From assembly GCA_025769875.1 (NCBI GenBank), contig JAGFNK010000586.1:1-32095 (forward strand): a stretch of 32,095 nt of DNA, in the 5' to 3' direction. The number at the start of each line of letters is the position of its first letter. The stretch's first letter is position 1. Source of the stretch: Russula earlei. Lineage: Eukaryota > Basidiomycota > Agaricomycetes > Russulales > Russulaceae. The notes under the pieces were generated by a model. The model saw only the letters and a list, made by a program, of their open reading frames with translations. It had not been told where the DNA came from and ran no database searches. The translations under genes and the position numbers were made by a program. Positions 4,902-31,431 of the stretch are shown piece by piece.

Positions 4902-4909
4902 GGGTTGTT
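4902..4909. repeat. Left copy of the 8-bp target-site duplication of the hAT-like element
   Basis: GGGTTGTT directly precedes TAGTGCTGTC. The identical octamer is at 12334-12341, directly after GACAGCACTA. Eight base pairs is the duplication length of the hAT superfamily. Confidence 0.9.
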
Positions 4910-5062
4910 TAGTGCTGTCGCCGGCTCGGCTCGAAACCGTTTTGAGCTGAGCCGGAGCTGTATCTGAGCCGAGGTAAGCCGTTCAATGGCTCACGGCTCG
5001 AAACAGTGCAAGCCGTTTTGAGCCGTTTTGAGCCGTTTTGAAGTGCCAGATTTGGAGTTTTG
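4910..5062. repeat. Left TIR and GAGCCG subterminal repeats of the hAT-like element
   Basis: After the TIR come GCTGAGCCGG, GAGCCGAGG, then three consecutive GAGCCGTTTT units at about 5010-5041 and several GGCTCGAAAC words. A second short duplication, GCCAGATTTGGA, occurs at 5045 and 5069. Clusters of short motifs like this near the ends are where hAT transposases usually bind. Confidence 0.75.
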
Positions 5063-5169
5063 AAGGGCCAGATTTGGATATGGTTGCTCAATTTGGAGAG
5101 TTGTCTGCCACTTCTACATCGCAAGCAGGCTCCTCCCTAAGGCTCCCTTTCTGCCATCCTTAGTTACCA

Positions 5170-6240
5170 TTGTGGACATGTGGTCCTGTGTCTCGTCTTT
5201 TTATCTTTATATCCACCTTGACTCAAGTGCCACTCATGAGCCTTGGCAAGATCTTTGGTGCCCCTTCCCCAGCAGAGGCTGCACTGTCTCCTGCCAAAGC
5301 TGCCTGCATCCTGTCAGAAAGCTCGGCAGCAAACTTGCTGTACACTACCATCTCAAAGATCTCAGGGTTGACCTCCTGCCGCCCATCAACGTTACAGCTT
5401 ACCCCGTCCCCCCACCACTAGTCCAACAGTTGAAGCTTCTACCACCCAGACATCACTGCTCAGTCCGGACAATGGAAAGAAGAGTTGTCGCAGCACACTG
5501 AGAGTTATGGTCGAGCCCTCACGTGCACCATCAAAGCCCACCCTGGTCACAGCTCCGCGCGCAATCCAGAGACGCCATCTCGCAAAAAAGGAATCTTCAC
5601 CGAACCGTCAGACCATGGGTCATGTCCAGTGCTTCCTTCATCTGACGAGCAGGTTGCACTCGGTGACAAGGTGGATCACAAGTATCTGTCGTAAGTATCG
5701 GTGGTGCAGAAGCTTCTCCCCAATCGTGCTGCCACTGCTTCTGCCTGGACAGTGGCTGACAACCATTTTTGGGCCATGTAGCTGGTCCCAAGTTGGTAAA
5801 CTTCGGTTGGGCGCTCACGACTGCTGCCAACATCACTTCAGTCGCGACATGGGGCCATGTGCCCCCGACACCATTGGGCATAGAATGCCTGCGAGCATGA
5901 GTAAGGTGCACAAAGTTATGCAGTGGTTGCGCTCATGCAGCAAGGGCCATGGTCTCAATGACAACAGAGAAACCTCTGTGCCGCTGGGCAGGAAGCTATC
6001 TGTACGTGATGCCCTTCGTTGTCAGTGTGAACGATTTCATGTGACTGACTTGAACTCTTTGGCACTAGGATTGCGACAGATCTGAATCCACAATTCTGCC
6101 TCCAAAGAAGTCGACTACGGAGCAGCAGGAGCTGGAGATGTTGAACCACACCCAGATGACCAATCTGCTTTAACATCGACAAGTCAACTGCTACAAAGCT
6201 TGGCAAGCCGTCGACGTTGAAAGAGGAATTGTGCGTTTTT
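5170..6240 (+). pseudogene. Unidentified captured coding fragment(s)
   Basis: I do not recognise the protein. One plus-strand frame stays plausible with interruptions: 5170-5421 (a hydrophobic start, then SPAEAALSPAKAA and ISKISG), 5485-5694 (SQHTESYGRALTC, ending DHKYLS just before GTAAGT, a possible donor) and onwards about 5700-5790 (VVQKLLPNRAATASAW). Near 6130-6230 a frame gives FNIDKSTATKLGKPSTLKEE, which reads like genuine protein. Codon-like structure and lack of low complexity suggest exons of one or more captured genes. Stops and frame changes show it is not translatable now. Confidence 0.35.
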
Positions 6241-6460
6241 TCTTATTGTCAACTTTCTCCCTCCCTAGCTCGCTAATGATCAGTATCTAGCATCATGTGT
6301 AAATCTCTTGAATGGTACAAGTCCTCTCCAAACAACCCTCTGTGCGTTGCATCATCCGCTTGTCCCCACCTCCCCTCCGCTAGCATTTGTACACTTAGCT
6401 GACTTGTCCATATTATCAGGTATGACATGCACATAATCACCTACACGTCGCTGTTCTGGA

Positions 6461-7910
6461 TTGTCCAATGGAGGGCCACCAGTCTTAGCGGCAGCAACTT
6501 TACCTACAGCAGCGAATCATCCATTACCCAGAGTTCAGTTGACATTGCCTGTCATCCATCATTTCTTCCTCCCGATATTGTGCCTTCCAGTGTGGACAAC
6601 TTCGAGTGCACCCTTCTGCCCATTCCACCGCTTCCTGTTCTAACCAACTCAAAGCAGTCATCCATTGCATCGCAACATCCACATCCAGGAGTCCATGATA
6701 CAGCACCCCACATATGCAAGCACTGCTGTATGCCTTGACCCATCATCTTCCCATTCCCCCCCCAGATCACTGACCTGTGCTCTTGTATCTATCACATACA
6801 ACAGACAGACTGCCTCACCAAATTCATGGTCACAGAGATATGCTCCCAGCTCTTCGACTCGAAACTCACTTGGCCTTCCTCGCCGCCTATTGCCTCTCCC
6901 ACCTGTCTTGTACCGATGTTCTTGAAAAGTCCATGACCCTAGACCCAGATGACCCTTTCATAATTCCACCAGGTCTATCTGGGCACCCAACCATTCCACC
7001 ACATTTACTCCCTGATTTTCCTGCCAAGAAGAGGTGCGCAAGGCATCTTGCCCTGTTGCTAGACTCTGACAACCCTGACATTCGAGAATGGGCACAGGCC
7101 AAGTATCTCAAGCTTGGACGCATGGGACATCGGCTTGTATGCAAAGGCGTATTCGAAGTCAAGGTTATGTTGGATGGCACTGACTAGAACCTTGCTGAAG
7201 ACTGGAGTGCCAACAAGTGAGAGGAGGATTTGGAGAAGCTGAGGGAGCGGCTCGAGAGGGACGCGAAGAGCGCAGAGGCTGAGTGTGAAATGGTATGAGC
7301 ACGGGAGACATTTGGCAAGTGGGTCATCGATGGATGTGTTGATGCCATGTTTTGGTTTGCCGCAGACATCCTGAATGAATTGTTGAAGGAGGTCGCGTGG
7401 GATGAGGGTGAGGAGTGGGTTTTTGGGAGGAAGGAGTCAAAGAACCACCACCAAAGTCAGCCAAAATCAACCCAGAATTACGCGATCCTTCATCCACCCT
7501 GGCCACTTCCAAGACACCAGAAGCCAAGCGAATCGCGCTGAAGGCCGCAGCCTCATCCACTTCTATCGCTTCATTCGAAACTGCAGGGGCGCACAACGCT
7601 CAGAGCCAGTACAGAAGGCCAAACACGAAGCCGGAGCCGGAGCCAGTGCCTGAGCCTGCACCTCCACCAGTCCTAGACGTTGACACCAACCAGACTGAGG
7701 CAGCGGTTGATGACTCCTGTTACTGATCCCCCAGTAACCCCCACATTGCACAGCCTCATTATGAACACAGTCCGGAGAGATTCGCCCTTACCTGTCCCTC
7801 ATGCCTCTTCCTGCTGCATTCATCAATATTCTCTGAAGAGGGTCTTCTCACCTATGCCATGAACACCATCCACCCTGATCCGCTTCCAGAGTTGTCCACC
7901 CATGTCGAAT
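6461..7910 (+). pseudogene. Unidentified captured fragment with a charged helix and a P/E-rich segment
   Basis: Plus-strand pieces appear to belong together. At 6461-6643 a segment starts MSNGGPPVLAAATLP. At 6855-7187 comes LETHLAFLAAYCL...DPDDPFIIPPGLSG...PAKKRCARHLALLLDS. At 7200-7420 a charged, probably coiled-coil stretch (EEDLEKLRERLERDAKSAEA) is followed by DGCVDAMFWFAADILNE. At 7440-7726 a different frame gives PPKSAKINPELRDPSSTLAT and then PNTKPEPEPVPEPAPPP. At 7745-7908 a last frame gives ERFALTCPSCLFLLHSS. Joining needs several frameshifts or introns. I cannot name the family. A nuclear or scaffold-type protein would fit the composition, but that is a guess. Confidence 0.35.
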
Positions 7911-7994
7911 AGGTGCGACCTGACTCGCAGCTGAGTAGCAGCAATCAGACAGTCATACCATAGAACCATTCGCGTTTGCCTCAGTGTTCATGCT

Positions 7995-8710
7995 CAAGGT
8001 ATGCTGTCCCGCCTTCTAGTGGTCTTGGTCAGAATTTTTGACTTGCATCTGCCATAGCTTCTATGCCCAGAATGCTCAAGGTTTATCACCCTGGGGCTTA
8101 ACAGAGGTCTACAAAGTGATCAAATGCCTCATTGCCACAATTGCGTCTCCCCAAATTGCAATTGATGAGCGCCACACTCCAAAGTTGTACTCGTGCTTCC
8201 TGGAAAGCTTACTGGCAAAACATAAACACGACGGCATGGCCCAGGGACGTATGCCTCAACAGGGACCACCACCGCAGCAGATGCAGACCGGTTTGATTAC
8301 ACCAAGGTACCAGCAACTACCACAACTACTACAGCAACAGCGACAATGACAGCAGCAGCAACCACCCCCCCTCCCCCCCCCCCACCACAGAACACAACCT
8401 CGTCATCACTATCGTCAGGTCTTAGTGGCAACGCAGGCGCCCCAGATTTGCATCAGTCTGTGCCACAGAATAGTGGAGTGACGGCTCCACCCAATTTCAC
8501 AAATGCAGATTCGACAGAAGGACCAGGAAACTACATCCTGGAACAACCACCAGATTTCATGTTTGGTGTCGCAGGCCAACCTTATGAACTGATGGACTTT
8601 ATGTTTGACACGATCACCAGGCCTCGGAATGATGACTTGCTCGCAACTATGCAAGTGATCCAGAACCTGACATGGTGGCAGAATATGACGATGCTAGGGT
8701 CAGCAGACGC
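7995..8710 (+). pseudogene. Captured C-terminal part of a Zn2Cys6 (Gal4-like) transcription factor, probable
   Basis: A possible intron (GTATGC near 8000, CATAG before 8060) precedes an exon reading FYAQNAQGLSPWGLTEVYKV, then IDERHTPKLYSCFLESLLAK. This resembles the end of the fungal transcription-factor middle-homology region. A Q- and P-rich linker follows, with CAG and poly-C tracts at 8318-8392 that shift the frame. Then comes an acidic/aromatic tail with PDFMFGVAGQPYELMDFMFD and NDDLLATMQVIQNLTWWQNM, ending at a stop near 8698. The DNA-binding Zn2Cys6 cluster is absent, so only the C-terminal half was captured. The naming is from resemblance, and the exact paralogue is unknown. Confidence 0.45.
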
Positions 8711-8729
8711 TTGTCTTTATGTTGTCTCA

Positions 8730-9022
8730 ATCAGACTTGGGTTGACATCTAACCCTCAGAAATGGCATGAATACCTATCAGAACTTGCAACAACCTGCAG
8801 AAGGACTTTGCAGCTAAGCACACCCGGGCTTGCTACCCACCACTCACTCTGTCGCCAATGCCTCAATGCTGCCTCCTTTCAAACTCACCCCTCAATGCTA
8901 TGAAACCAACACCACCGCAGCTACAGCAACGCAACAACAACATCAACAGCAAAGTGTTTGCGCATGCTGCGCCATGCAATCCTCCCAAAGCGAAACCCCC
9001 GCTGAACACTTGCCCTTCTTAG
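8730..9022 (+). pseudogene. Short unidentified captured fragment
   Basis: A frame reads NPQKWHEYLSELATT. After a shift it continues as LQKDFAAKHTRACYPPLTLS and a Q/N-rich run (about 8910-8955). It lies between the transcription-factor fragment and RPN10 and ends abruptly where the RPN10 similarity begins (LEVLV at about 9023). I do not recognise the family. It could be another gene or the far end of the preceding one. Confidence 0.3.
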
Positions 9023-10035
9023 CCTGGAGGTGCTTGTCATGCGTGGCACCAGAGAGCTTGGCCAGATCTTCGTGGCCATGCACCAGACATCCACCAACCT
9101 CAGCCGGACGGCATTCATCCCGACCGCAATCGTGATCGCGCAGCTCGCGCTCAAGCACCAGCAGAACAAGAACCTCTGCCAGCATGTCATCGTCTTCATT
9201 GGCTCCCTGCTTGAGGACACCTCGCCTGACACCGAACGTGCCCTGGTCCGCCTCGCCAAGAAGCTCAATAAGACCAACGTTGTGCTCAACATCATCGAGG
9301 AGGTCGGCGAGGGCAGCCACAGTATCCTCCGTGCCTTTGTCAAGACCGCTTCCTCTTCCAACAACTTGTAATGTCCCCCTCCTTAAATTTCTGTAGCCTG
9401 CTTACAAGTCCAGACCACTTGTGTTTTCTTGGTCACTCGTCCTCCAGACATTACCTCGCTGTCTCACCTGGCCCACACCTCTCCTCCATCACCCTCAACT
9501 CCCCAATCCTGGCCAGCGACCGCGGCATCCCAGATGAGCTTGCCACCATTCCTGGTGGCAAGGGCGGGTGCTGCCAGCACCAGTGGTGTGTTGCAGTTTG
9601 AGTTTGGCATCAACCCCAGCCTTGGCCCCAAGTTGGCCATGGTATGTCCTCCATCCTCCCGACCCAACCCAACCTGACAACAAAACTCAGCATACGAACC
9701 AATAAAAAAAACCAAAAAAAAACACCAAGACAATCTCTGCAGATGTCCATGGAAGAGGAGGCGGCGCAGCAGGCAGCTGCCAACACCCTGCCCCAACCGC
9801 CACCAGGTGCAGCTGCGCCAGCAGCGGCTGGTCCAGACGGTGTGCCAGCACAACCTTCTCAGTTGGCAGCTGCCACCAAAGAAGGTGAAGAGGCGGATCT
9901 GCAGCAGGCGCTCGCGCTCTCTGAAGGTCGCACCATTCCTGACATTGAGATGACTGGGGAATGTGAGAGGGAAGAGGATCTGATGAAGAAAGAGATGATT
10001 GCGCCAGCCATTGTGATGAGCATGCACCCCGAGGT
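9023..10035 (+). pseudogene. RPN10: Captured RPN10 fragment (26S proteasome ubiquitin receptor), introns retained
   Basis: RPN10 (S5a/PSMD4) is a subunit of the proteasome 19S particle that binds polyubiquitin. The first ~70 residues are missing: similarity starts abruptly at LEVLV. It continues through the VWA domain: LGQIFVAMHQT, IAQLALKHQQNKN, HVIVFIGSLLED, LVRLAKKLNKTNVVLNIIEE. An intron (9368-9447, GTAATG...CCAG) precedes VSPGPHLSSI. After a frameshift near 9550 comes FEFGINPSLGPKLAM. A second intron (9642-9742, GTATGT...GCAG) leads to MSMEEEAAQQ. Two ubiquitin-interacting motifs follow: DLQQALALS and EEDLMKKEMIAPAI..MS. The conserved FEFGVDP, PELA and UIM order makes the call firm. The host genome should have its own intact copy elsewhere. 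Confidence 0.88.
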
Positions 10036-10117
10036 GGAATCAGACGTGCAGGGCATGTGGAAGGTCAGTTGGATGATTGTGCACCACCTCACAAGCCATG
10101 CGCTCATCAGGCATCCA

Positions 10118-10905
10118 GGTCTTGACCGACAACGTAAACTTGATGGTCATGAATTTGACAAACCAAGTGCGCTCGATCACCGAGGTAATGGAGGCTGTAG
10201 CGAGCGGAGACTTGACAAAGAAGGTCGCAGTTGATGTCTGTGGTGAAATGCTTGACCTCAAGGAAACCATAAACGGGATGACGGAGAGCTTGAGTGTCTT
10301 TGCTGATGAGGCGAGTCGAGTTGTACACAAGGTCGGAACAGAGGGTCGTCTGGGTGGCCAGGCAAACGTGACAAATGTCGGTGGATTGTGTATGGTTTGT
10401 CCATATCACGTCAAAGAGCTTCCTGGGACTGACGTCACGGCTTTATCTGACCGCAGGACCTGACGGACTGAGTGAACGTGATGGTGGCTAACATGAGTTG
10501 GACATAGGCAATTCTTTCCTCATCAGCCTGTTTTTCTGATGGATGAGTGCAGTTGACTCTACAAGTCTGAACCATTGCTGTAGCTATGGTGAGTTGAGGT
10601 TCATACATGGTTTGAATATGACGATGCTCTCTCAGACTGCCGTCACTTGAGGAGATCTGACCCAAAAAGTGACTGGTATATCTGTTTCTGAAGAAATCTT
10701 TCACCTGGTGAACACGATCAATGACATGATTGACCAGTTGGAATTCTTTGCCTTGGAGGTTAAAAAGGTCGTGCAAGCATCTGCCTTTGAGAGTGTGATG
10801 AGGTAGGACTGCGCCAACCTCATGGCTGTGATGTTGGTACGGAAGGCAAATTGGGCGTGCAAGCTGAAGTTGGCAATGTTCAGAATCTGGCAAGAAATCA
10901 TGTAG
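10118..10905 (+). pseudogene. Captured HAMP-repeat segment of a group III hybrid histidine kinase (Nik1/OS-1 type)
   Basis: Group III kinases sense osmotic stress through tandem HAMP domains ahead of the kinase core. Here [20 protein letters not shown], then [48 protein letters not shown] and TNVGG give about one and a half HAMP units (10118-10385). An intron-like gap (about 10388-10458, ending CCGCAG) leads to DLTD-stop-VNVMVANMS. Further on, after degenerate sequence, come VSEEIFHLVNTINDMIDQLE (10680-10745) and VGTEGKLGVQAEVGNVQ (10833-10885). No histidine-kinase H-box, ATPase or receiver domain is present. At least two stops and a frameshift mark it as dead. Confidence 0.88.
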
Positions 10906-10959
10906 GTCATTCCCTCGCCTTGTGTTCAGTCATTTGACGTCACCCTTTCTCTCCAAGGG

Positions 10960-11803
10960 AATGTCAATCAACAAGATGGCCGGCAATTTGATCACCCGAG
11001 TGCGTGAGTCGTCGACTCCACCACCACCCACTCCACCACCACAGGGCCCGTTATCCTTCAAGCCCAAGGTCCACACCTCGCTGCACCACACCACGTTTGA
11101 CTTGCTCTCGATCCGTGTCAACCCCAAACTGACACAGAGCAAGATACAGCCCATCTCGATGCTCGTGACTGCTGAGCACTACCTCTTGATGTGTTTGTGC
11201 ACACGGCTGCCATCAATGGCACGCCTGCTGCACGATGCTGGCTCTGGCACTGGCAAGGGGCGGTGCGAGGGCAAGGTCTTCGTCTTCAACAATGGCAGCT
11301 TCGTGTGTTGTGGCCTCTCGCAGGAGGACGCGATGCAGTTCAGGAGGGATGTGTTGTCGCCCGCAAAGGCTGAAATTGGTTCCTTCACTGAACCAGAGGT
11401 GGAGGAGCTGGAATTCGCCACGGATCCATCACAGTGCGTAATTCGTGGGGCCTAATAAAACTCTCAACATGCTTGTTGAATCTTTTTTTCCTTGTTCCAA
11501 TGCAGGAAGACGCAACTGCAGGGAGACCTGATCATCCTCAGGGATGGTCCACAACCTCCCCACCCAGAAAACCTTCTTGATTTGTGCCGCCGTCTGTGTC
11601 TCCCCAAGGGACGGTCCTAGTGCACTATGCGTTCTCCCAAGCCCTGTCATGCTCAACCGCTCTCTCTGCGCTCCAGGCTTCGCTCGAGGACTACCTCTCC
11701 TCTATGTCCTCACTCCCGCTGGCTCTAGAGAAGACAGGAAAACTGGGCATGAGCCGATGCGCTCTTGTCAAGAAGCTGGGCGAGCTGCTGCGCTTCCGCC
11801 TCC
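10960..11803 (+). pseudogene. Captured DUF155 (RMND1/Sif2-like) gene fragment, one intron retained
   Basis: The DUF155 family includes RMND1 and the yeast RMD1/RMD8 proteins, mostly mitochondrial or membrane-associated. Exon 1 begins MSINKMAGNLITRVRESS, has a proline run, then LVTAEHYLL and GKVFVFNNGSFVCCGLSQED (the 'G.vf.F..G..V.Wg' block), and ends EPEVEELEFATDPS. An intron at 11434-11505 (GTGCGT...TGCAG, 72 bp) is followed by QGDLIILRDG and PPHPENLLDL. After a frameshift near 11580 come YAFSQALSCSTALSALQAS and LEKTGKLGMSRCALVKKLGE LLRFR, the conserved C-terminal helix block. Similarity ends abruptly at about 11803. The kept intron shows capture from genomic DNA rather than mRNA. Confidence 0.8.
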
Positions 11804-12100
11804 AGTCATCGGGACATGACCAGGAACTCATGAGGGGATTTGTCACCGTGTTACAGCTCTCCAATCGACCTGTAGTTGTCGGCGATTGGGGACACCCACA
11901 TCTAACACTCGCATGCAACCAACATCAATTGTTACAATGTATCAATATATATCTACTTATCTGAATTCCAGTATTGTGCTTGCTGCTTCAGTACACTTGG
12001 CAGGATGTAGATGAGATTTTGAAATAAGGCAGAATCATTTTGAGGGGCCAGTGTATGGCAGTTCAGAGTTCAAGATGAGACTTCAAAACTCACTCAACTG
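11804..12100. other. Unassigned hAT interior
   Basis: A plus-strand frame gives GFVTVLQLSNRPVVVGDWG just after the DUF155 fragment, which could be a sixth captured piece but is too short to identify. From about 11920 it is AT-rich with no coding signal, leading into the right subterminal repeats. Confidence 0.4.
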
Positions 12101-12102
12101 GA

Positions 12103-12333
12103 CCAAAAGTAGAAATGGCCCAAATGGGATGGCTTGAATCGGCTCAGCCAATGAGAGGCATCGAGAGCGTTCTCAAAATGGAAAGTAGATCCAAAAGTAG
12201 AAATGGCCCAAATGGGACAGCTCGAATTGGCTCAAGCCGCAAGCCATGGCTTGGCTCGGTCCAGCTCACCCAATCTGGCCAAGCCATTGCTGAGCCGAAC
12301 TGAGCTGAGCCGAGCCGAGCCGTGACAGCACTA
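12103..12333. repeat. Right subterminal repeats and TIR of the hAT-like element
   Basis: A block starting CCAAAAGTAGAAATGGCCCA occurs at 12103 and again at 12191 (period 88), each followed by a GGCTCA-containing stretch. Then come runs of GGCTCGG / GAGCCGA words up to the terminal GACAGCACTA. The left and right ends share the GAGCCG vocabulary in opposite orientation, as expected of one element. Confidence 0.75.
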
Positions 12334-12341
12334 GGGTTGTT
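12334..12341. repeat. Right copy of the 8-bp target-site duplication
   Basis: GGGTTGTT directly follows the element end CACTA and is identical to 4902-4909. Confidence 0.9.
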
Positions 12342-15589: not shown

Positions 15590-16417
15590 TGTTACGAACC
15601 AAGGCCAGGTCCTGGCCGTAGATTGTCCTATTTCACTCAAGAGAGACCTCTCTCACTTTGCATTACCGACTCCCTTCCATTTTCTGGGCTATCCCTCCTA
15701 CGGTACAAAATATCACTATTGCAAAGGCACTATAACACGACCAAGCACCCGTTTCCTAATTGGGTAATCATCGCGTGGCAGCCACATGGCCACCCAGCCA
15801 CCAAGGACCCGAAACAGTGGCACAAACTCTTAGAAACTGTTGCATAAATCATCTGACGTCATCAAGGCTCCAATGACATCATGGCTGACTGAGCGACTCC
15901 ACAGTGACCTCATAGGCTCACTAAGTGCTCCACAGTGATATCATAATGATGTCATTGCTCCACAATGATCAGTAATGTGCTCAGTAAGCCTGAAACTTGA
16001 CACAAGCAAGTTTATGCCTCTGTAGTCCTATTGGATGGTACCAAAGAGTCTAGAATAGTCCCAGTTCTTTGTAATCGATCCTGTACACTGTATATAAGCC
16101 CCAATGAAGCATGGCAGTCGTCAGACTGTCCATTTGTGATACTCTCATCTTCCTGGGTACTCCCCTGTGACCGCTCAGTCTAAAGATTCCCCTCGCCTCC
16201 AAGGTACTCTTTAACGACCGCCTTGTTTAAAGCCCCTCGTTACACTGGCCTCCAGCCTTCGCCTCTGTCTCTTGCAACACCTACCAGTCCCCATCTAGTA
16301 CCTCCTCATTGTTTGGCTCGTCCTCTTGTTCAACACCGCCTTCGCCACGTACCATCTGTTCCGACCCTTGCCCACCTGCTCCTGAGTCCTTAGTGATCAG
16401 CAGTACGTGTCTTGACA
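15590..16417 (+). mobile_element. Solo LTR, LTR_A family, inserted in the FunK1 pseudogene
   Basis: The unit is 828 bp. It starts TGTTACGAACC, ends GTCTTGACA, and is flanked by a perfect 5-bp duplication CTGAG (15585-15589 and 16418-16422). The promoter TATATAAG is at 16091-16098. A second copy, in minus orientation, is at 24968-25796. The insertion separates the N-lobe and catalytic-loop exons of the kinase. A 75-codon open frame (15623-15847) is shared by both copies, but it covers LTR sequence and I do not annotate it as a gene. Confidence 0.92.
15854..15954 (+). promoter_or_regulatory. Array of five TGANNTCA (CRE/ATF-like) motifs in LTR_A
   Basis: TGACGTCA (15854), TGACATCA (15874), TGACCTCA (15905), TGATATCA (15936) and TGATGTCA (15947) lie within 101 bases, about 140 bases upstream of the TATA box. 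TGACGTCA is the classical bZIP (ATF/CREB) site. The other LTR_A copy keeps five such motifs at 25429-25536. They plausibly act as the LTR enhancer. Confidence 0.5.
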
Positions 16418-17295
16418 CTGAGTTGATTTGAACGTACTCAGCGGCTGTCCAAGTGTCTCCAACACCAGTCAGTAATGAACATACAAGTCAACATTTGGTC
16501 AACCTAGGCACCATTTGTGTTTCCTTTTCCCTTTTGCATAGTCTTGCATCTTTGTCCTTTGCACAACAAGTGGAACTGTATTTGTGTGGTCCGGTGACAA
16601 AGGAACATTGCCAGCTTGATCAAACACCAGGATGTGAGGCACTTGCACCCCATTTAATTCCTGATACACGTCCCCTTCCTTCTGGGTCCCTTGACAATCT
16701 ATATGCCAGAAGTCCTTCAAATATACCAGTTTTGAGCTTTCAATATTATATGCAGCATATCCAAATGTGGAACAACCAAAAAGTGTCTTTGTATGCCATA
16801 TTGGCCCCACTGTGATATAAAACTTCAGCTGCTGACCATTGGCAGCATGGTCGTCATGAACAAGAAACTTGCAAAGGTCCTTGGGTTTTGCCTTCTTGAG
16901 ACCCTCATATTTGTTCAGCTTCGAAATTGCCACAGTGGCCTCATCATTAGAGACCACAGAGATGACTGTGGTGTCTTGACCATGATCCGTGTTGGAGAGA
17001 AAGTTGAGTCTCCAGATGAACTCAAACAGTGTGTCATGTTCTTCAGCCCAATTAAAAGGCTCAGAATAGATTAGACTGCTACAGTCCCATCAGAGTAATC
17101 AACTGCTTTTACTAAAGAGGACAATAGTGAAGGAGAAGAGGCAAAATTGTGAATGATGGAGAGTGGAGGCATAAGTGATCAATTGACTGCAAATTTTGTA
17201 AGCTGAATTGTTGTACTTTATTATCTGACTCTCAGTTTCCCTCTTTGTTGGATATACAATCTGTCATATAGATTAATCCACTTTACTGTGCCCAA

Positions 17296-22796: not shown

Positions 22797-23679
22797 TGTC
22801 ACAGTAACTAGCCATGTCAGTTCACAAGTGGAAAACAAGTTGATGATAGAGAGGTGTTCAAGAAACGGGCTGGTTCCCATGTATAATGAGTAAGGATCCC
22901 TGCAGCGGTTGAAGTGTTTTATGCTAAACAGGTTATGGCCAATAGACCCTTCCTAGTACAACTCGGTCCGTTGAGAAGCTAGGGTAAGTTTGTAATGGGA
23001 TAGACTAGGCCTGATTCCACTAGCTATATGTGTTCAAGTCCGTCGGGGACCTTGAAAAATGCAGAGAGAGTAGAGGAAGGTAGGTCTTAAAGGAGGAGAG
23101 CTCTTCTCAGGGGAGTGAAGAGAGACTCTTAGGAAAGGAAGGGAAAGGCGAAGAGTAGATGGTGGATGGTGTGTTGAGAGTTGATGAAATGGAGAGGTGG
23201 TTGTGGTTTAAGTTTGTGAGAGTGAAGTGGGTTGCAGAAGAATATGTTGGACAAGAGTAGGTTGAATTCTACAAGAGACCAAGCTTAGGGCTTTGGTCAC
23301 AAAGTACTGAGCTTATATATATAGGAGAAGCGCAGCAATAGCTGCGCTTTGACTATGCTACTAGTATAGTAGGAGTCATAATAAGTATAAGTCATAGGAA
23401 GAAGGCCACGAATGAGTCAGAACCAAGTAGCTGTGCTGCACAGTAGGTGCGCAGCATTGCACAGTCGAAACTAAGAAGTGAATATAAATGGAAAGAGAAC
23501 CAAACAAAGGGAAAGTAATAGCAATCCAGTGTTACCTGGACGTGTATGGATCACATGATAACACAGAAGGGATCACAAGACGTAAGAGATCATGAGACTA
23601 GTAAGTAAAGGGATGTACGAAAGCAAGCAGTCCATAGCAAAAGGTAAGCGGTAAACATAAAAGGAAAATGGTGTAACAT
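22797..23679 (-). mobile_element. 3' LTR of the LTR_B element
   Basis: 883 bp. On the minus strand it starts TGTTACACCATTTTCC and ends GTTACTGTGACA. It is highly similar to 30551-31431; in the first ~300 plus-strand bases I count by eye about 16 differences, nearly all transitions. It contains the TATATATATA box at about 23315-23324 and a perfect 8-bp stem hairpin (23329-23348) just upstream of it. Confidence 0.92.
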
Positions 23680-23693
23680 CACCCCCCCATCAA
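23680..23693 (-). promoter_or_regulatory. Polypurine tract
   Basis: On the minus strand GATGGGGGGGTGA abuts the TGTTA start of the 3' LTR. This is the expected place and composition for the plus-strand DNA primer of a retrotransposon, and it confirms which LTR is 3'. Confidence 0.75.
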
Positions 23694-23730
23694 GGCCCCT
23701 AGAAGTGAGAACAATGACGATAAGGCCAAC

Positions 23731-24889
23731 CTACTTTTCTCCATGGCTGGTCCGACTTCGCAGATCGTACCCTTTTTGTTTTATGATCTCCTCTGTTGGG
23801 ACAGTTTGGTTGAATGTGCCCCAGTTCACCGCAATGAAAGCAGGATTTTCTGGAGTGATGGGAGGAGGTTGGTGGGAGTCTGGGAGAGTCGGATGAGAAG
23901 GATGAGCTAGAGAGCTGGAAGGAGTCAGCGGAGGAAGACGAATCGAGTCACATACGTTCCTATAGGCGACTACCATCTTCTTCTTCGTCTGATCTGTCTT
24001 GCCACCTGAGATTGAGGGTAACCCGATTGAGAGTATTGGCGGCGGCAAGGGTTTGTTTGACTTCTCTAAGGTGCCCTTGATGTTTGAGTATTTAAGCAAA
24101 GAGGAGGCGTATGGTTTGTCTCCTTTTGAGGATCTCTGCTGTCCTGTATCTGTATGATTTGACTCCTGCTGTGAGGGAGGGGTCATTGTCATCCTCAATG
24201 GCCCTATTGACAAAGTTCGTGTAAGGCTGATCAGCGAGGAGCATGTCCCACTGCTCCTCGTTGGGGATTGGGATGGGCCAGGCAGCGGGGATTGGTGTGA
24301 ATACTCGAGAGAAGATGGGGGCTCCCTTGCCAAGGGTAGCATGGATGAGGGGTTCTGGTCGAGCGTCCAACTCGACAAGAAACCAGTTTGCCCTGTACAT
24401 GGTTCCTCCAAGGTACTCAGGGACTGCAAAATCAACAAGGGGGTAGTCCGAGGAGGGGATCCAGTCAGGGCTGGGTTGTGGAAGGCGAGGGGCATCAAAG
24501 AATTTGGCAGCCTCGAATTGTTCAGCAAGGGAGAATGGGGATGGAGTGTGTGCTGGGAAAAGGTTAAGTCCCAGGGCATTGTAATCAGATCCGAGAAGGG
24601 TGGAGGAGAGGGAAACGGATGGTGGAAGAGGGGAGAGACAGACTCGGGTGACAGCGTCATCGTCGTCCTCATCGCACTCGTAGGCAGGGGGGTTTTTGAA
24701 GGGTAAAGACCTTCTTGCCAGTTGGGGAGTGGGGGAGGCAATGGTGATGTCGTCGGCATAGGATAGAGTGGGGGAAGGGTAGGTGAGAACAGGGGAGGCA
24801 CAAGTGGGGACTGGGGATGAGGGACAGTAGGCAGGGGATGTGTAGGTTAGGATGGGTGAGGATGGAATATAAACTGGGGATTGAGACAT
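23731..24889 (-). pseudogene. Additional ORF downstream of pol in the LTR_B element (function unknown)
   Basis: From the ATG at 24889 (MSQSPVYIPSSP) an uninterrupted 265-codon frame runs to 24092. It has a P/S/Y-rich N-terminus, an acidic patch (YECDEDDDDAVTR), then a more globular part (FDAPRLPQPSPDWIPSSDYP, MYRANWFLVELDARPEPLIH, NEEQWDMLLADQPYTNFVNR). A second minus frame takes over at about 24115 and continues to a stop at 23731 with NPAFIAVNWGTFNQTVPTEE and a basic end GYDLRSRT. I infer one protein of about 385 residues split by a frameshift or an unrecognised intron. No transmembrane segment is seen, so it is not a typical env. The solo LTR_A now separates the ORF from its presumed TATA box. 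It is not part of standard gag-pol. Confidence 0.65.
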
Positions 24890-24967
24890 TGGCAAATGTG
24901 AGAAGAGGTAGAGTTTGAAGGTGAAGAAGGTGGAGAAGGAGTTTGGTAAGTAGAGTGGATGAGATGG

Positions 24968-25796
24968 TGTCAAGACACGTACTGCTGATCACTAAGGACT
25001 CAGGAGCAGGTGGGCGAGGGTCGGAACAGATGATACGCGGCGAAGGCGGCGTTGAGCGGGAGGACAAGCCAAACGACGAGAAGGTACCAGATGGGGACTG
25101 GTAAGTGTTGCAAGAGGCAGAGGCAAAGACTGGAGGCCAGTGCAGCGAAGGGGCTTTAGACAAGGCGGTCGTTGAAGAGTACCTTGGAGGCGAGGGAAGT
25201 CTTTAAACTGAGCGGTCGCAGGGGAGTACCCAGGAGTATGAGAGTATCACAAATGGACAGTCTGACAACTGCCATGCTTCATTGGGGCTTATATACAGTG
25301 TACAGGGTCGATTACAAAGCACTGGGACTATTCTAGACTCTTTGGTACCATCCAATAGGACTACAGAGGCATAAACTTGCTTGTGTCAAGTTTTAGGCTT
25401 ACTGAGTGCATTACTGATCATTGTGGAGCGATGACATCATTATGATGTCACTGTGGGGCGCTTAGTGAGCCTATGAGGTCACTGTGGAGTCGCTTAGTCA
25501 GCTATGATGTCATTGGAGCCTTGATGACGTCAGATGATTTATGCAACAGTTTCTAAGAGTTTGTGCAGCTGTTTCAGGTCCATGGTGGCTGGGTGGCCAT
25601 GTGGCTGCCACGCAATGATTACCCGATTAGGAAATGGGTGCCTGGTCATGTTATAGTGCCTTTGCAATAACAATATCTTGTACCACAGGAGGGATAGCCC
25701 AGAAAATGGAAGGGAGTCGGCAATGTAAAGTGAGAGAGGTCCTTCTTGAGTGAAATAGAACAATCCTTGGCCAGGACTTGGCCTTGGTTCATAACA
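24968..25796 (-). mobile_element. Solo LTR, LTR_A family, nested in the LTR_B element
   Basis: The unit is 829 bp. On the minus strand it starts TGTTATGAACC and ends GTCTTGACA, flanked by a perfect 5-bp duplication GATGG (24963-24967 and 25797-25801). The minus-strand TATATAAG is at about 25289-25296. It inserted in the leader of the extra ORF after the host element was already in place. Differences from the copy at 15590 are largely C/T and G/A. Confidence 0.92.
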
Positions 25797-25849
25797 GATG
25801 GCAAGCAAGTTGTAGAAGATGCTCTGCTGTCTCGAGTTCTGGAGGAGGG

Positions 25850-25857
25850 TTTTTATA
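25850..25857 (-). promoter_or_regulatory. TATA box overlapping the pol stop codon, probable promoter of the extra ORF
   Basis: On the minus strand TATAAAAA begins within the last sense codon of pol (GTA), and the TAA stop (25855-25853) is part of the box. Leaving out the nested LTR_A and its duplication, the ATG of the extra ORF is about 127 bases downstream, a reasonable leader length. Confidence 0.5.
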
Positions 25858-28800
25858 CATGAGCTCGTCCACCCGCAGGGGAATTTGTCTTTGAGTTCAA
25901 GTATTCTTTGAGTAGAGCCGGAGCATGAAGGTCAGCAGAATTGACCCATGAGCACTCCGAAACCAGGTAACCTTCCCAATGAACAAGGTATTGTGTCCTG
26001 CCTCGGTACTTCCTGTCTCCAATGATAGCAGCAATTTCATATTCTTCTTCTCCTTGTACAATGTCAGGTGGTGGTCAGGTAAAAGCTTTGCCATATGCCC
26101 CTGTTTCAGTGAATGGCATGAGAAGATCCACATGAAACACATTGTGGATTTTCATTGATGGGGGCAATTTGATGCGATATGCCACTGGTGTGATTTGTTG
26201 TATCACCTCAAATGGTCCATAACGCCAAGGGGCAAGCTTCTTTGATGGGGCCTTGACCACCAGATTGCGTCCATCCAGCCACACGAGTTGTCCTTCTTTG
26301 AGCTTCCTTGGTTCTTCTGATGGTTTGATACGTTTCAGAAGTTCCTCCTGCACCCTGGATCGTACCTGTTCCATGATTTTGAGACGTGCTTCAGCCTCAG
26401 GAACAGATATGTCCATTGTTGTCCATTTGGCAGTTGGATTGAAACCAAGAAGAAGTTCATGTGGTGTGTGCCTGGTGCCTTCATGTCGCCAAGTATTGTG
26501 AGCAAACTCAGCAATAGGAAGTAGTGTGTGCCAATCATTTTGCCGTCCATTTATGAATTCCCTCAGATAAGTCTCTATCCAGAGGTTCATCCACTCAGTT
26601 TGTCCATCCGTGCGTGGGTGAAAGGCAGTGCTCAAATTTTGTTTGATCCCTGTGGCTTTACAGATGGCCCTGGTGAAGTTTTCTTTGAAACGGGGGTCCC
26701 TGTCAGAGATGATTCTCTTGGGAATTCCGAACCATGGAAATAGATTAGCCAGGTACTTGATGGCAATGCCCAGGCCATCTATAGTTTTATTGCAGGGAAT
26801 AAACTTTGTGGCCTTTGAACAGCCTTGATCGACGATAGTAAGAATGGAATCATATGATCCGGACTTTGGAAGATCCGTGATAAGGTCCATTGAAACATAT
26901 TGGAAGGGGCCAGCTGATACATTTGTATCAAATGGTTGGAGTGGCGCATGTTTCAGGGTGGTGATGGCTTTAGATTCTTGACATTTAGCGCATCCCTTGA
27001 TGTATTCTTCCACAAATAGACGGAGTCTGGGTCCTTTGTATTTCCTTCTTATAAGATCCCAGGTGTTAGCGATGCCAGGGTGTCCTCCCACTGGGGAATC
27101 ATGGACTTCCTTCAAGACTTCCCGTCGTAAAATGGGGTCATCAGGTAGGTAAGTACATAAGGGGAGTGACTTGTGTGAGTAAGCTTTGCATGCAAAAGCT
27201 TCCTGGTTATCGCCAAAGGTACGGTTAAGGGTAGGAGCACAAGCTTTAGGGATGTTTGCCATCTGCAAGTGCTCATTGAAGACATGATCAGGTAGGAGTG
27301 TGATAGCTTTGTTATGGATGTTTTCTCCTTTGTGATCAGGTTGTCGTGATAGAATGTTGGCAACAGTGTTAGACTTTCCAGGAATAGTCGTCAACTTGAA
27401 GTTGTATTCCTGGAGAAGGGCCATCCACCTTGCTTGACGTGGTGAAAGGTCCTGGGGTTTGCGGAAGTAGGCCAGATTGGCATGATCTGTGCGAATAGTT
27501 ACTTCATGACGTGCCCCAAGTAGCCAGTGTCGATATTCTTTAAGGACAGATACTATAGCGAGTAGTTCTCTGTCATGGATATCGTAGTTCCTTTCTGCTG
27601 GTAGTAGGGATCTTGAAAAATATACCAGAGGATGGATACCATCTTCAAATTGCTGAGATATAGTGGCTCCCAGAGCGAAAGAAGTGGCATCAGCATCCAC
27701 AATGAAAGGTTTGTTGAAGTCTGGGTTGCGAAGAACAGGGTAATGAGTGAAGATATTCTTGAGAATATTGAACAAAGATTCCATGTAATTATCCCAGACC
27801 TAGGGTTTGTTCTTCTTTGTGAGCCAGACTAGAGGTTGAACAATATCTGAATATTTTGGAATGAAGTTTCAATAGTAATTCCCAAATCCAAGGAAAGAGC
27901 GTAGCTCATGTAGATTGGTAGGGGCCTTCTAATCACAAATTCCTTTGACTTTGATTGGGTCCATCTTGATCATTCCTTTGCCAATAATGACGCCAAGATA
28001 GTCAATTTCTTCTTTGTGGAATTGACATTTCTTAGGTTTAAGGAAGAGGTCATTATCTTGAAGCTTCTTAAAGATGCAAGTAACGAGATCTTTGTGATTC
28101 TCCCATCCTTTAGATGCTTGTGTGGCGATGATGCCATCGTCCATGTAGATGTGGAACTCTATATCATGATGATTGAGTTCTTCTCTAAAGATATCATTGA
28201 CCATAGATTGGAAGATGGCCGGGGCGTTAGTGAGACCAAAGGTCATCACCATTGGTTCGAATAAGCCCTTGTTTGTTTTGAATGCTGCCTTCCATTGATC
28301 ACCGTCTTTGATGCATATGTTGTTATAACCCCATTGTACGTCAAACTTGGTGAAGTATTGTTTACTTCCTAAGCAAGTGATGATTTCGGGAATGAGAGGA
28401 AGGGGGGTTTTGTTTTCAACAGTGATTGCATTAAGACGTCTATAGTCTTGGACGTAGTGTCATTTACCATCTTTCTTGCCTACAAAGAAGCAAGGAGAGG
28501 CATATGGTGATTTTGAAGGACATATATATCCTTTCTCCAAATGTTCCTTTAGGAATTCATCTTGGGCCTGTTGTTCCACTGGCGCAAGGGGGTAAATCTT
28601 ACAATTGAGCGTAGATGGAGCATCAGGGATTAGGTCTATGGCATGATCCCAAGGTTTGGAAGTAGGAAAGTGATGAGAGGCTTCCTCAGAAAAGAGCCTT
28701 TCAAAGCAATGATAGTCGGGAGGAACTAAATCCTTTCAGTCCTTCTTGTCTTGATCAGCTGCTTGCGCAGCTAGTTGGGTAGAAGTGCTAATCTTTGCTA

Positions 28801-29296
28801 CTCTGATTGGAGTAGGATCAAAGCATGGGGGTATTGGAAGCCGCTTGATCCATTTGTCAGCATCCCAAGTGGAGGCTACGACAGTATCCTCAAGGGTTCC
28901 TTTGGTCCAATCGACAGCAGGGTTGGTAGCACGGAGGAATGGGAAGCCAAGAAGCATGTCATCGGTTGTTATTTCAGCAATATAGAAGTGCATTTGATGT
29001 TCTTGTCCTTTGAATCGAATGTAAAGATCGACTGCTTCAGTGACAGTTCCAGCTTTGTTGTGAGTACCATCTACATTGCGCATTACTTTTGGCTTTTGTA
29101 GAGTGGTAACTGGGAGTTTATAGCAAGTGATGATATTCTTGTGGATGAAATTGTCAGTTGCTCCACTATCAAGTAGAGCAACGAGATCGGCCCTTCGTCC
29201 ACTAGTGCGTATTTGAACAGGAACTTTGATTGAATTAAGTCTTGCTACAAATACATCACTAGGGAAGACAGCTCGAATTAAGGCCAGGTAATTCAA
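25853..29296 (-). pseudogene. pol: pol polyprotein: protease, reverse transcriptase, RNase H, integrase, chromodomain (six nonsense codons)
   Basis: One minus-strand frame is open from 29296 to 25853 except for stops at 28736, 28460, 27929, 27869, 27800 and 26075. Protease: LLDSGATDNFI near 29165 and DMLLGFPFLR. RT: YPLAPVEQQAQDEFL, YRRLNAITVENKTPLPLIPE, FGLTNAPAIFQSMVNDIF and the catalytic HIYMDDGI near 28150. RNase H: VDADATSFALGATIS, DRELLAIVS, IRTDHANL. Integrase: zinc-binding HDSPVGGHPG...CAKCQ, then the D,D,E triad in SMDLITDLP, ISDRDPRFKENF and DGQTEWMNL. A GPFEVIQQITPVAYRIKLPP linker (GPF/Y-type) and a chromodomain (EEEYEIAAIIGDRKYRG, QYLVHWEGY) follow, the latter behind the TGA at 26075. 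Catalytic residues survive, so decay is recent relative to the domain structure. The first codon used is TTG because pol is normally read on from gag. Confidence 0.93.
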
Positions 29297-29557
29297 GCTG
29301 GGGGAAAATCCACGCCATTATTGACCATGGCAGTAGCCCATGAGCAATGTTGTTCTTCAGAATATCCAGACATTATAGCCGCAACTTCCTCAGGAGATGG
29401 TCCTTCATTATAAGTTTGTGTCTCCTGTTGAGTAGGTTGTTCGGCTGTTTGATCATCAGCAGGATTTTCCTGATAATATTCGGTTGGTTGTTCGTCAGTT
29501 TGAGCTAAACGAACATGGGTGTTGACCTGTTCTTCAGGGTAATACAGTTCCTGGTAT
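29297..29557 (-). pseudogene. gag-pol linker in a shifted frame
   Basis: A different minus frame is open here and reads EPDEYQELYYPEEQVNTHVR, then a Q/E-rich stretch, EVAAIMSGYSEEQHCSWATA and NGVDFPPA. Gag and pol themselves share one frame, so two compensating frameshifts, one near 29575 and one in the C-run near 29302, bracket the linker. Restoring one base at the C-run would give continuous reading into pol. The element probably had a single gag-pol frame. Confidence 0.6.
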
Positions 29558-30535
29558 TCATCTGGTTCTATAACTAATTTTAACCAGACGTGTTTTCATA
29601 GGAACTGATTTGAAGGTGGTCGACTTGTTAGGACAATTGCGTGCAACATGTCCTTGTTTAGAGCAAAAGAAGCAACAACCTTCGACTTGATGTTGTTTCT
29701 TCTCTTGCTCAGTAGTGGCCACTCTAGCGTGGTCAACATCCATTGGAACAACTTGATTGTTGCCCCTAGGAATAAATTGACTAGTAGGGTTCCTTGGTAC
29801 AAAGGTAGGATTGACCCCAGGAGGCGGTCCAGGAGGAGGATGGAATGTAGTGTTGGTAGGGTGGAAGTTAAGGAATCGTTGGGGATTACACGCAATATTG
29901 TGTATATCTCCTATATAGCTAGTGTTAACCCAATGGTCCACATTAGGGCCCCTTATAAAGGATAGATAAGCGTTAACTCGTCTATAAGGATTGTTGAAGA
30001 GAGAGTTTTCATCATTCATATTGCGAAAGATGGCAAACTCTCTCATGAATTTGGAGGATTGGGAGCGGTCTCCATCAAAGATAGATGGTGGGTTTCCCCT
30101 GACTGCTCCATTAGAAGGGATTAGGACTATGGCAGCCATAGCTGGAGTAGGTGAAGTAGGAGGTGAAGGTGGATATTGAAAGAGTTGATACTGGGGGTCT
30201 GATTGATCCCAAGTTCCTAAACCATGTTCTTTGTTGTCGAGAACAAGGCCTTCGTGAGTAGCGTATTCAAGGTGAAGTCCGACTTCTTGTCTATCAAGTT
30301 TATACCAATGTCCGTTGATAAATTCAATAGGGTGGTAAAGGTTTTCAATGCGGAGGTAATATCCTACTTCGGGTTCAGTGGGGTGCCAAAAGGCTTTACC
30401 AGTGATACATTCGGGTAGGTTGTCTTGATTATGTCGAGTGACGGTTCAGTGTTGAAGAGGGTTAGATGAGGAAGCTGGTTCAATAGAGGGTTTGAGGATA
30501 GCAAGAGTATTCGAGGTAGAAGCCGTGGTGAAACA
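29558..30535 (-). pseudogene. gag: gag (nucleocapsid) with a nonsense codon and an internal deletion
   Basis: The longest ATG frame is 30139-29558 (193 residues). The same frame continues upstream without an ATG, through a TGA at 30446-30448, to about 30530, reading FWHPTEPEVGYYLRIENLYH and FINGHWYKLDRQEVGLHLEY, so the true N-terminus is longer. The body has PPSIFDGDRSQSSKFMREFA and GPNVDHWV. It then jumps to CNPQRFLNFHPTNTTFHPPP, so roughly the central capsid part of a usual gypsy gag is missing. The nucleocapsid keeps a CCHC zinc knuckle (CFFCSKQGHVARNC, CX2CX4HX4C). The frame ends at a TGA where a frameshift precedes the linker. Confidence 0.85.
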
Positions 30536-30537
30536 TT

Positions 30538-30550
30538 AAGCTTGGTCTGA
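30538..30550 (-). promoter_or_regulatory. Primer-binding site, self-priming type
   Basis: Directly inside the 5' LTR the minus strand reads TC then AGACCAAGCTT. This is complementary over 11 bases to AAGCTTGGTCT, which lies in the LTR about 30 bases after the TATA box, where the mRNA should start. In Tf1/sushi-type elements the first ~11 bases of the mRNA prime reverse transcription this way. No tRNA 3' end (such as initiator Met, TGGTAGCAGAG complement) is seen here. Confidence 0.7.
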
Positions 30551-31431
30551 TGTCACGGTAACTAGCCATGTCAGTTCACAAGCGGAAAACAAGTCGATGA
30601 TAGAGAGGTGTTCAAGAAACGGGCTGGTTCCCGTGTATAATGAGTAAGGATCCCTGCAGCGGTTGAAGTGTTTTATGCTAAACAGGTTATGGCCAATAGA
30701 CCCTTCCTAGTACGACTCAGTCCGTTGAGAGGCTAGGGTAAGTTTGTAATGGAATAGACTAGGGCTGGTTCCACTAGCTATATGCGTTTAAGTCCGTTAG
30801 GGACCTTGAACAATACAGAGAGAGTAGAGGAAGGTAGGTCTTAAAGGAGGAGAGCTCTTCTCAGGGGAGTGAAGAGAGACTCTTAGAAAAGGAAGGGAAA
30901 GGCGAAGAGTAGATGGTGGATGGTGTGTTGAGAGTTGATGAAATGGAGAGGTGGTTGTGGTTTAAGTTTGTGAGAGTGAAGTGGGTTGCAGGAGAATATG
31001 TTGGACAAGAGTAGGTTGGATTCTACAAGAGACCAAGCTTAGGGCTTTGGTCACAAAGTACTGAGCTTATATATATAGGAGAAGCGCAGCAATAGCTGCG
31101 CTTTGACTGTGCTACTAGTATTGTAGGAGTCATAATAAGTAGGAGTCATAAGAATGAGGCCACGAATGAGTCCGAACCAAGTAACTGTGCTGCACAGTAG
31201 GTGCGCAGCATTACACAGTCAAAACTAAGACATGAATATAAATGGGAAGAGAACCAAACAAAGGGAAAGTAACAGCAATCCAGTGTTACCTGGACGTGTA
31301 TGGATCACATGATAACACAGAAGGGATCACAAGATGTAAGAATCACAAGACCGGTAAGTAAAGGGATGTATGCAAGCAAGCAGTCCATAGCAAGAGGTAA
31401 GAAGTAAACGTAAAAGGAAAATGGTATAACA
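30551..31431 (-). mobile_element. 5' LTR of the LTR_B element
   Basis: 881 bp. On the minus strand it starts TGTTATACCATTTTCC and ends GTTACCGTGACA. It carries a hairpin (31083-31102), TATA box (about 31067-31077) and predicted start (about 31040). It retains more CpG than the 3' copy at many of the differing sites, while some go the other way. Confidence 0.92.
31029..31077 (-). promoter_or_regulatory. Core promoter of LTR_B: TATA box and predicted transcription start
   Basis: Minus strand: TATATATATA (31068-31077), about 28 bases, then AAGCTTGGTCTC (31040-31029). The start is predicted at about 31040 because these first bases match the primer-binding site. The same layout is present in the 3' LTR at about 23275-23324. 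Confidence 0.6.

Follow-up and report, generated by a model that had tools for sequence, protein, structure and literature searches.

The 32,095-nucleotide stretch of Russula earlei DNA analysed here (contig JAGFNK010000586.1; hereafter, the window) contains a 7,424-bp element that is, with high confidence, a non-autonomous hAT-type transposon with an interior pieced together from parts of five genes, likely by template switching in gap repair, and likely moved by the transposase of a sister element such as that on contig C19. This account draws on the inverted ends of the element, its target-site duplications, related empty sites, five copies of the mosaic, host counterparts of four pieces, introns in two pieces, a transposase domain in the C19 sister, and differences in cargo among lineages. 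C-numbers denote contigs of the assembly, and the window element is the C586 copy. Its features are as follows:

4902..4909, no strand: left target-site duplication GGGTTGTT, read directly in the sequence
4910..12333, plus strand: whole non-autonomous hAT-type element, 7,424 bp, delimited by inverted ends, duplications, and related empty sites
4910..4933, plus strand: left terminal inverted repeat TAGTGCTGTCGCCGGCTCGGCTCG, from end-pattern search and alignment
4934..5866, plus strand: left part, of which 5182-5673 is common to other family members (such as C18, C367, and C261; 88 to 90%)
5867..6465, plus strand: piece a of a fungal transcription-factor-like gene, of which 6044-6465 matches a dispersed repeat family
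6465..7973, plus strand: piece of an arginine/serine (Arg/Ser)-rich host gene, 86% to C141
7971..8826, plus strand: piece b of the transcription-factor-like gene, C-terminal part
8969..10044, plus strand: 3′ part of RPN10 with introns, host gene on C541/C182
10043..11009, plus strand: HAMP part of a Nik1-type histidine kinase, in-frame fusion to RPN10, host gene on C75
11006..11798, plus strand: part of a DUF155/RMND1-like gene, in-frame fusion to the kinase piece, host gene on C243
12103..12333, plus strand: family-conserved right subterminal region, in which the inverted repeat occupies 12311-12333
12334..12341, no strand: right target-site duplication GGGTTGTT, read directly in the sequence

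The inverted ends of the window element start TAGTGCTGTC. The left end reads TAGTGCTGTCGCCGGCTCGGCTCG and the right end, reversed, TAGTGCTGTCACGGCTCGGCTCG; the first ten bases are identical at both ends and are followed by GGCTCGG-rich sequence, and the terminal repeats, aligned by eye, extend over about 24 bases, interrupted by a single gap and a single mismatch. An earlier reading of this DNA, made from the letters alone (the sequence-only reading), had described the same inverted repeat at both ends, with GGCTCGG-rich subterminal zones, and a perfect 8-bp duplication bracketing the element. Both descriptions were borne out when the ends were aligned, their pattern was counted genome-wide, and the duplication was read at both flanks. 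The span it gave, 4902 to 12341, encloses a real element but includes the duplications, which lie outside the element proper. The two duplications agree at eight of eight positions, as in the hAT superfamily. The short inverted ends of hAT elements begin like YARNG, and the TAGTG found at both ends of the window element fits this motif.

The window element belongs to a large family. The pattern TAGTGCTGTC-N(1-3)-GGCTCGG occurred 72 times in the 66.6-Mb genome (35 forward, 37 reverse), and a control pattern occurred 0 times in the same sequence. Similarity searches, which score the best candidates only and therefore give approximate copy counts, returned at least 73 pieces matching the left end (best 40 of 95 candidates scored) and at least 79 matching the right end (best 40 of 129). 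We considered 17 paired loci, each with flanks that were read and with its two ends on the same contig, oriented for pairing and no more than about 14 kb apart (C87 is among those left out). Perfect 8-bp duplications were present at 13 of the 17 (C586, C587, C173, C25, C284, C261, C367, C18, C142, C205, C1032, C389, and C19); the duplication matched at seven of eight positions at C186, and at C788 the same octamer was shifted by one base (1/8 in register). By eye, no preferred target sequence stood out among the 13 perfect duplications. A second right end lies at C25:122229-122247, 761 bases past the right end of the C25 copy. Several contig pairs (C405/C141, C541/C182, C8/C909, C810/C22, and C129/C1277) are nearly identical or identically flanked, which suggests that the two haplotypes remain partly separate in the assembly and that copy counts may include alleles.

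The sister at C19:57626-67745 (10.1 kb) shares the ends of the window element and is flanked by a perfect duplication; its opposite strand holds a region with the hAT dimerisation domain Dimer_Tnp_hAT (PF05699, E = 9.3e-15). A member sharing the ends of the window element thus carries the transposase domain that marks the hAT superfamily. The window element itself was absent from the 147 hAT matches listed (best 150 of 260 candidates scored) and from the matches to the C19 transposase region (all 19 candidates scored), in agreement with the proposal of the sequence-only reading that the element is hAT-like and non-autonomous, with no transposase inside. DNA of the C19 transposase region was found on 17 contigs (one with just a 75-bp match), and on six of them (C19, C1366, C110, C22, C20, and C122) it has a family end no more than about 7 kb away. 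The joint between RPN10 and Nik1 is matched through at 79 to 81% by C19, C1366, C110, and C1344, all of which hold transposase DNA, and by C614; 12 of the right-end loci examined carry the HATPase part of the kinase (84 to 88.5% to C75). Because members with transposase DNA match through this joint, the RPN10-Nik1 fusion is likely older than the loss of the transposase in the branch of the window element.

An element of another superfamily could also be considered as the carrier of the gene pieces, since P elements, too, create 8-bp duplications and MULEs and Helitrons are well known for transporting genes. Such an assignment is very improbable given the 13 perfect duplications at 17 loci, the TAGTG ends, and the hAT domain in C19, which shares these ends and is flanked by a perfect duplication. 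Helitrons have neither inverted ends nor a target duplication; the window element has both, and we rejected Helitron membership.

Comparison with the rest of the genome establishes the interior of the element as a patchwork of pieces of five genes, all in the same orientation. Four of the five have open-frame counterparts on separate contigs, as expected of Pack-type donors: C141/C405 for the Arg/Ser-rich gene, C541/C182 for RPN10, C75 for the Nik1-type kinase, and C243 for the DUF155 gene. The RPN10 piece is 82% identical in DNA to C541:24261-25335 and C182:22521-23595, where the matching host frame is stop-free over 284 amino acids (of the host gene itself, 101 bases at the 3′ end were read as DNA). 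VWA_2 and UIM matches in the window were weak (E = 0.048 and 0.068, both below the Pfam cutoff), and the host RPN10 protein P0147, of 350 amino acids with VWA and UIM domains, confirms the piece that had been recognized from the letters. The HAMP and DUF155/RMND1-like pieces had also been named correctly, since both domains are clear in the window (PF00672, E = 2.9e-9; PF02582, E = 1.4e-14). The kinase piece is 85% identical to C75:134117-135038, where HAMP, HisKA, and HATPase frames follow in succession, and the DUF155 piece is 81% identical to C243. The Arg/Ser-rich host gene has an open frame of 926 amino acids on C141; C405 carries a second copy, 99% identical and probably the allele. Named relatives of the gene are hypothetical proteins from Russula, Lactarius, and further Russulales. 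With this gene, 1.5 kb of what had been set down as unidentified exons is now assigned. In the left part, 5509-5960 (element positions 600 to 1051) is related to C541:20175-20610 and C182:18456-18891 (82%). A similar pair is present on C85, at 118136-118517 and 120033-120422.

For the remaining gene, a probable Zn2Cys6 factor had been proposed. Piece b matches at least 21 further places at 80 to 86% (best 40 of 364 candidates scored); three copies of this factor repeat are 84 to 87% alike to a fourth over 2.9 to 3.9 kb, and the C84 copy has a Fungal_trans domain (PF04082, E = 3.7e-7). The transcription-factor character was thus upheld for the repeat family, but a Zn cluster was not seen in the factor sequence and the window frame at 8226-8900 had no Pfam match. 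On C84, C16, C480, and other contigs, the factor-like sequence forms a dispersed repeat in its own right, reaching 3.8 kb or more in length.

Beside the window, four further full copies of the mosaic were detected, each with its own perfect duplication (C587, 96% identical to the window copy; C173, 95%; C25, 94%; C284, 95%). C586, C587, C173, and C25 align end to end, and C284 aligns as two pieces. Five copies with five different duplications place the cargo, together with the element, at several sites, as in Pack-type elements. Since each copy is framed by its own 8-bp duplication, we conclude that the set of gene pieces moved as one unit. Among the ten pairs of copies, differences ranged from 0.48 to 5.25%, with transitions making up 77 to 95%; C173 and C284 differ at 35 of 7,325 sites (0.48%) yet occupy separate sites with different duplications. 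Transversion distances were 0.23 to 0.29% in nine pairs and 0.11% for C173/C284, as in an amplification burst. Partial copies of the mosaic are also present on C29, C1137, C562, C1081, C129, and C1277.

When the window flanks were joined at one octamer, the 837-base query matched at five places (C129 twice, C231, C53, and C80), each in one alignment across the junction (835 to 837 query bases, 85 to 91% identity). Four of the five places are shorter than the query by 0 to 4 bases, and the junction letters at C231, C53, and the first place on C129 are a single octamer, GGGTTGTC. These related empty sites place the boundaries of the element where they had been drawn from the sequence alone. We found no allelic empty site; the matched sites are related repeats. 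Because the joined flanks match several related places, they indicate that the window element is inserted in another repeated sequence.

The structure of the pieces bears on how they were acquired. The RPN10 piece aligns to host genomic DNA in one alignment of 1,076 versus 1,075 bases, longer than the 873 coding bases of P0147 residues 60 to 350, and the public gene model P0141, from the window contig, splices the copy of RPN10 in the element. Behind the Nik1 residues GMWKV, an intron is present in both the host gene and the element and is spliced out in model P0060. Retention of these introns indicates that genomic DNA, not transcript, was captured, at least for these two pieces. An alternative is that the mosaic arose by nested insertions, one after another, or from spliced transcripts that were captured, rather than by genomic copying in gap repair. 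Histone H3-carrying fungal hATs are argued to have taken up a transcript or retrocopy (PMC6710886), and a gap-repair intermediate was seen in no sequence read. However, intronless cargo, the sign of H3-type transcript capture, is not what the RPN10 and Nik1 pieces show, and nested insertion is at odds with pieces joined edge to edge and with an Arg/Ser-rich piece that replaces roughly 0.55 to 0.64 kb of the factor repeat rather than interrupting it. We regard this alternative as unlikely and favor genomic copying in gap repair. Read by eye, the joints share CGGA at RPN10|Nik1 and CGC at Arg/Ser|factor, with only about one base shared at the remaining two.

Several observations weigh against the account as a whole. 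The joint microhomologies were read by eye on diverged sequence, with about one base at two of the four joints and no test against chance. At C88 and C110 both ends are present and the putative duplication lacks a match (2/8 each); we rejected both pairings for lack of a duplication. Although C19 offers the ends, the duplication, and the domain expected of an autonomous hAT with the same terminal repeats, the 1,251 bp read of its transposase region make it only a candidate for one. On 11 of the 17 contigs with transposase DNA, the end searches found no family end nearby. The factor piece matches the dispersed repeat family only, so that the finding of intact donors extends to four pieces and gives no single clear donor for the fifth. 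At C80, the empty site falls 47 bases short of the query, a difference lying outside the part read. Movement was read from sequence comparison, with no transposition observed. Finally, on C541/C182 the relative of element positions 600 to 1051 sits upstream of the RPN10 host gene, at a distance of about 3.65 kb, and the element has the two in this order as well. The left part and RPN10 could therefore derive from one neighborhood, in which case the captures were not all separate. This last arrangement also favors a segmental duplication, or a pseudogene cluster between chance repeats. Parental genes adjacent in the element's order were otherwise not found, the remaining donors lying on C141, C75, and C243. 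We rejected segmental duplication, which is hardly credible for the mosaic as a whole in view of these separate contigs, the five copies with five different perfect duplications, and the related empty sites.

Whether the fused frames are genes in their own right is a separate matter. The reading frame is kept at three of the four tested joints (factor|Arg/Ser, RPN10|Nik1, and Nik1|DUF155), six public gene models extend through the RPN10|Nik1 joint (P0055, P0058, P0060, P0066, P0079, and P0115), and in four of the five copies no stop interrupts the Nik1|DUF155 frame; these observations would suit chimeras that are selected and expressed as genes of the element or the host. At least three in-frame joints among four are expected by chance in about 11% of cases, so the in-frame joints are not significant by themselves. 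Against selection stand the stops in the Arg/Ser-rich piece in all five copies, the Arg/Ser|factor joint, out of frame in all five, the Nik1|DUF155 frame, broken by a stop in C173, and the heavy decay of the window copy, in which 160 of 174 private changes are C>T/G>A and 134 of these lie in CpG. Selected, expressed chimeric genes are thus unlikely.

Other members of the family carry other cargo, as had been anticipated for copies with the same ends: C19 has its transposase region and a perfect duplication, and C788, with its offset duplication, has another DUF155 gene. Members on C97, C366, C788, and C861 hold 1.46 to 1.50 kb of this second gene (C119, 89 to 91%), which gave no DNA match to the C243 gene. 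Two host genes of a small DUF155/RMND1-like family (C119 and C243) were thus captured separately, at different positions, by one transposon family. Among ten further reading frames of other members, Pfam detected nothing in nine and an AAA fragment in one, on C810, 1.2 kb inward of the right end; the left end of the C810 member was not seen. Public model P0167 joins the factor piece to a MAP kinase and, judging partly from a match at C541:808-1062, may belong to the C541 member. Other lineages thus probably carry AAA and MAP-kinase pieces. C909, C8, and C1172 share the RPN10-Nik1-DUF155 order, and C1172 has a right end. The near-identical loci on C8 and C909 carry this block with no family end in the approximately 4.6 kb examined.

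From these comparisons, we propose a stepwise history. An ancestor with transposase would first have taken up the RPN10 tail and the Nik1 stretch. One branch would then have lost the transposase, gained the first DUF155 gene (DUF155-A) in place of the 3′ part of the kinase, and gained the 1.5-kb Arg/Ser-rich piece inside the transcription-factor piece, before this transposase-less branch spread in a recent burst. The acquisitions probably took place as gaps within older family members were repaired, by template switching that may have been guided by microhomology. A C19-type transposase would act on the ends of the window element and mobilize it, and CpG-directed mutation following methylation would cause the copies to decay.

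Elsewhere in the window, a long terminal repeat (LTR) retrotransposon occupies 22797-31431 on the minus strand, with direct repeats at 22797-23678 and 30551-31431 (94.7% alike) and RNase H and integrase domains at 26075-27796. An inverted pair of an 830-bp dispersed repeat (92% alike) lies at 15590-16418 and 24967-25796, and a minus-strand frame at 16499-17089 has a Pkinase_fungal domain (E = 1.4e-7).

Gene capture by hAT elements is known from other organisms. A hAT carrying histone H3 occurs in Pyrenophora tritici-repentis in a form with transposase and a shorter form (PMC3538342), and 471 H3-bearing elements were reported in Pseudocercospora fijiensis, for which capture of a transcript or retrocopy was argued (PMC6710886). 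Like the window element, these have inverted ends and host-derived coding sequence (PMC3538342, PMC6710886), and those of P. fijiensis, about 9.5 kb long, likewise have 8-bp duplications and show C>T decay, there attributed to repeat-induced point mutation (RIP) (PMC6710886). In contrast to the Russula earlei element, with five genes, retained introns, a basidiomycete host, and cargo varying by lineage, the H3 hATs are described from ascomycetes, with one identified host gene (plus an open reading frame of unknown function in P. tritici-repentis) and a transcript-derived origin. Pack-hATs of maize and rice share the non-autonomous structure, inverted ends, captured coding DNA, and 8-nt duplications (PMC8903248); that account is limited to these two plants, and the words fungi and fungal are absent from its main text (PMC8903248). 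Animal Pack-TIRs, 208 of 370 of them hAT, also hold gene pieces within hAT ends, with breakpoint microhomology and template switching proposed (PMC8277862); they are seldom multicopy (for example, 3 of 23 in frogs; PMC8277862), whereas here a multi-donor mosaic was amplified as a unit. Fungal gene capture is discussed for Helitrons (PMC4905642, PMC10799480), and gene-capturing Helitrons of Pleurotus ostreatus, cited by title in PMC4905642, likewise represent host-gene capture by a DNA transposon in a basidiomycete. They are not hATs with inverted ends and 8-bp duplications; the DNA transposons listed there for P. ostreatus are Helitron and Tc1-mariner (PMC4905642). Searches of an open-licence library listed no title or abstract describing a hAT with captured genes in a basidiomycete. 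The suggestion that a multi-gene hAT carrier in a basidiomycete is little or not described therefore stands for this form within those searches and was too strong for the phenomenon, given hAT capture in ascomycetes (PMC3538342, PMC6710886), plants and animals (PMC8903248, PMC8277862), and Helitron capture in a basidiomycete (title cited in PMC4905642). The kind of element is known; the new part is a multi-donor, intron-retaining, lineage-varying hAT mosaic in a basidiomycete.

More speculatively, and with only a small chance of being right, this mushroom hAT family could be a standing exon-shuffling machine, in which transposase-bearing members hold the RPN10-Nik1 fusion (in frame in the window's lineage), branches swap in regulatory genes (MAP kinase, AAA ATPase, two DUF155 genes, and the Arg/Ser-rich gene), and some chimeras are expressed. 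With this element, Pack-type gene capture now includes a basidiomycete hAT mosaic that combines several genes and retains introns. A further consequence is that transposon chimeras are present among the annotated proteins of Russula earlei. With host genes, a shared fusion, varied lineages, related empty sites, and recent copies all in one genome, the order and mechanism of capture become tractable.

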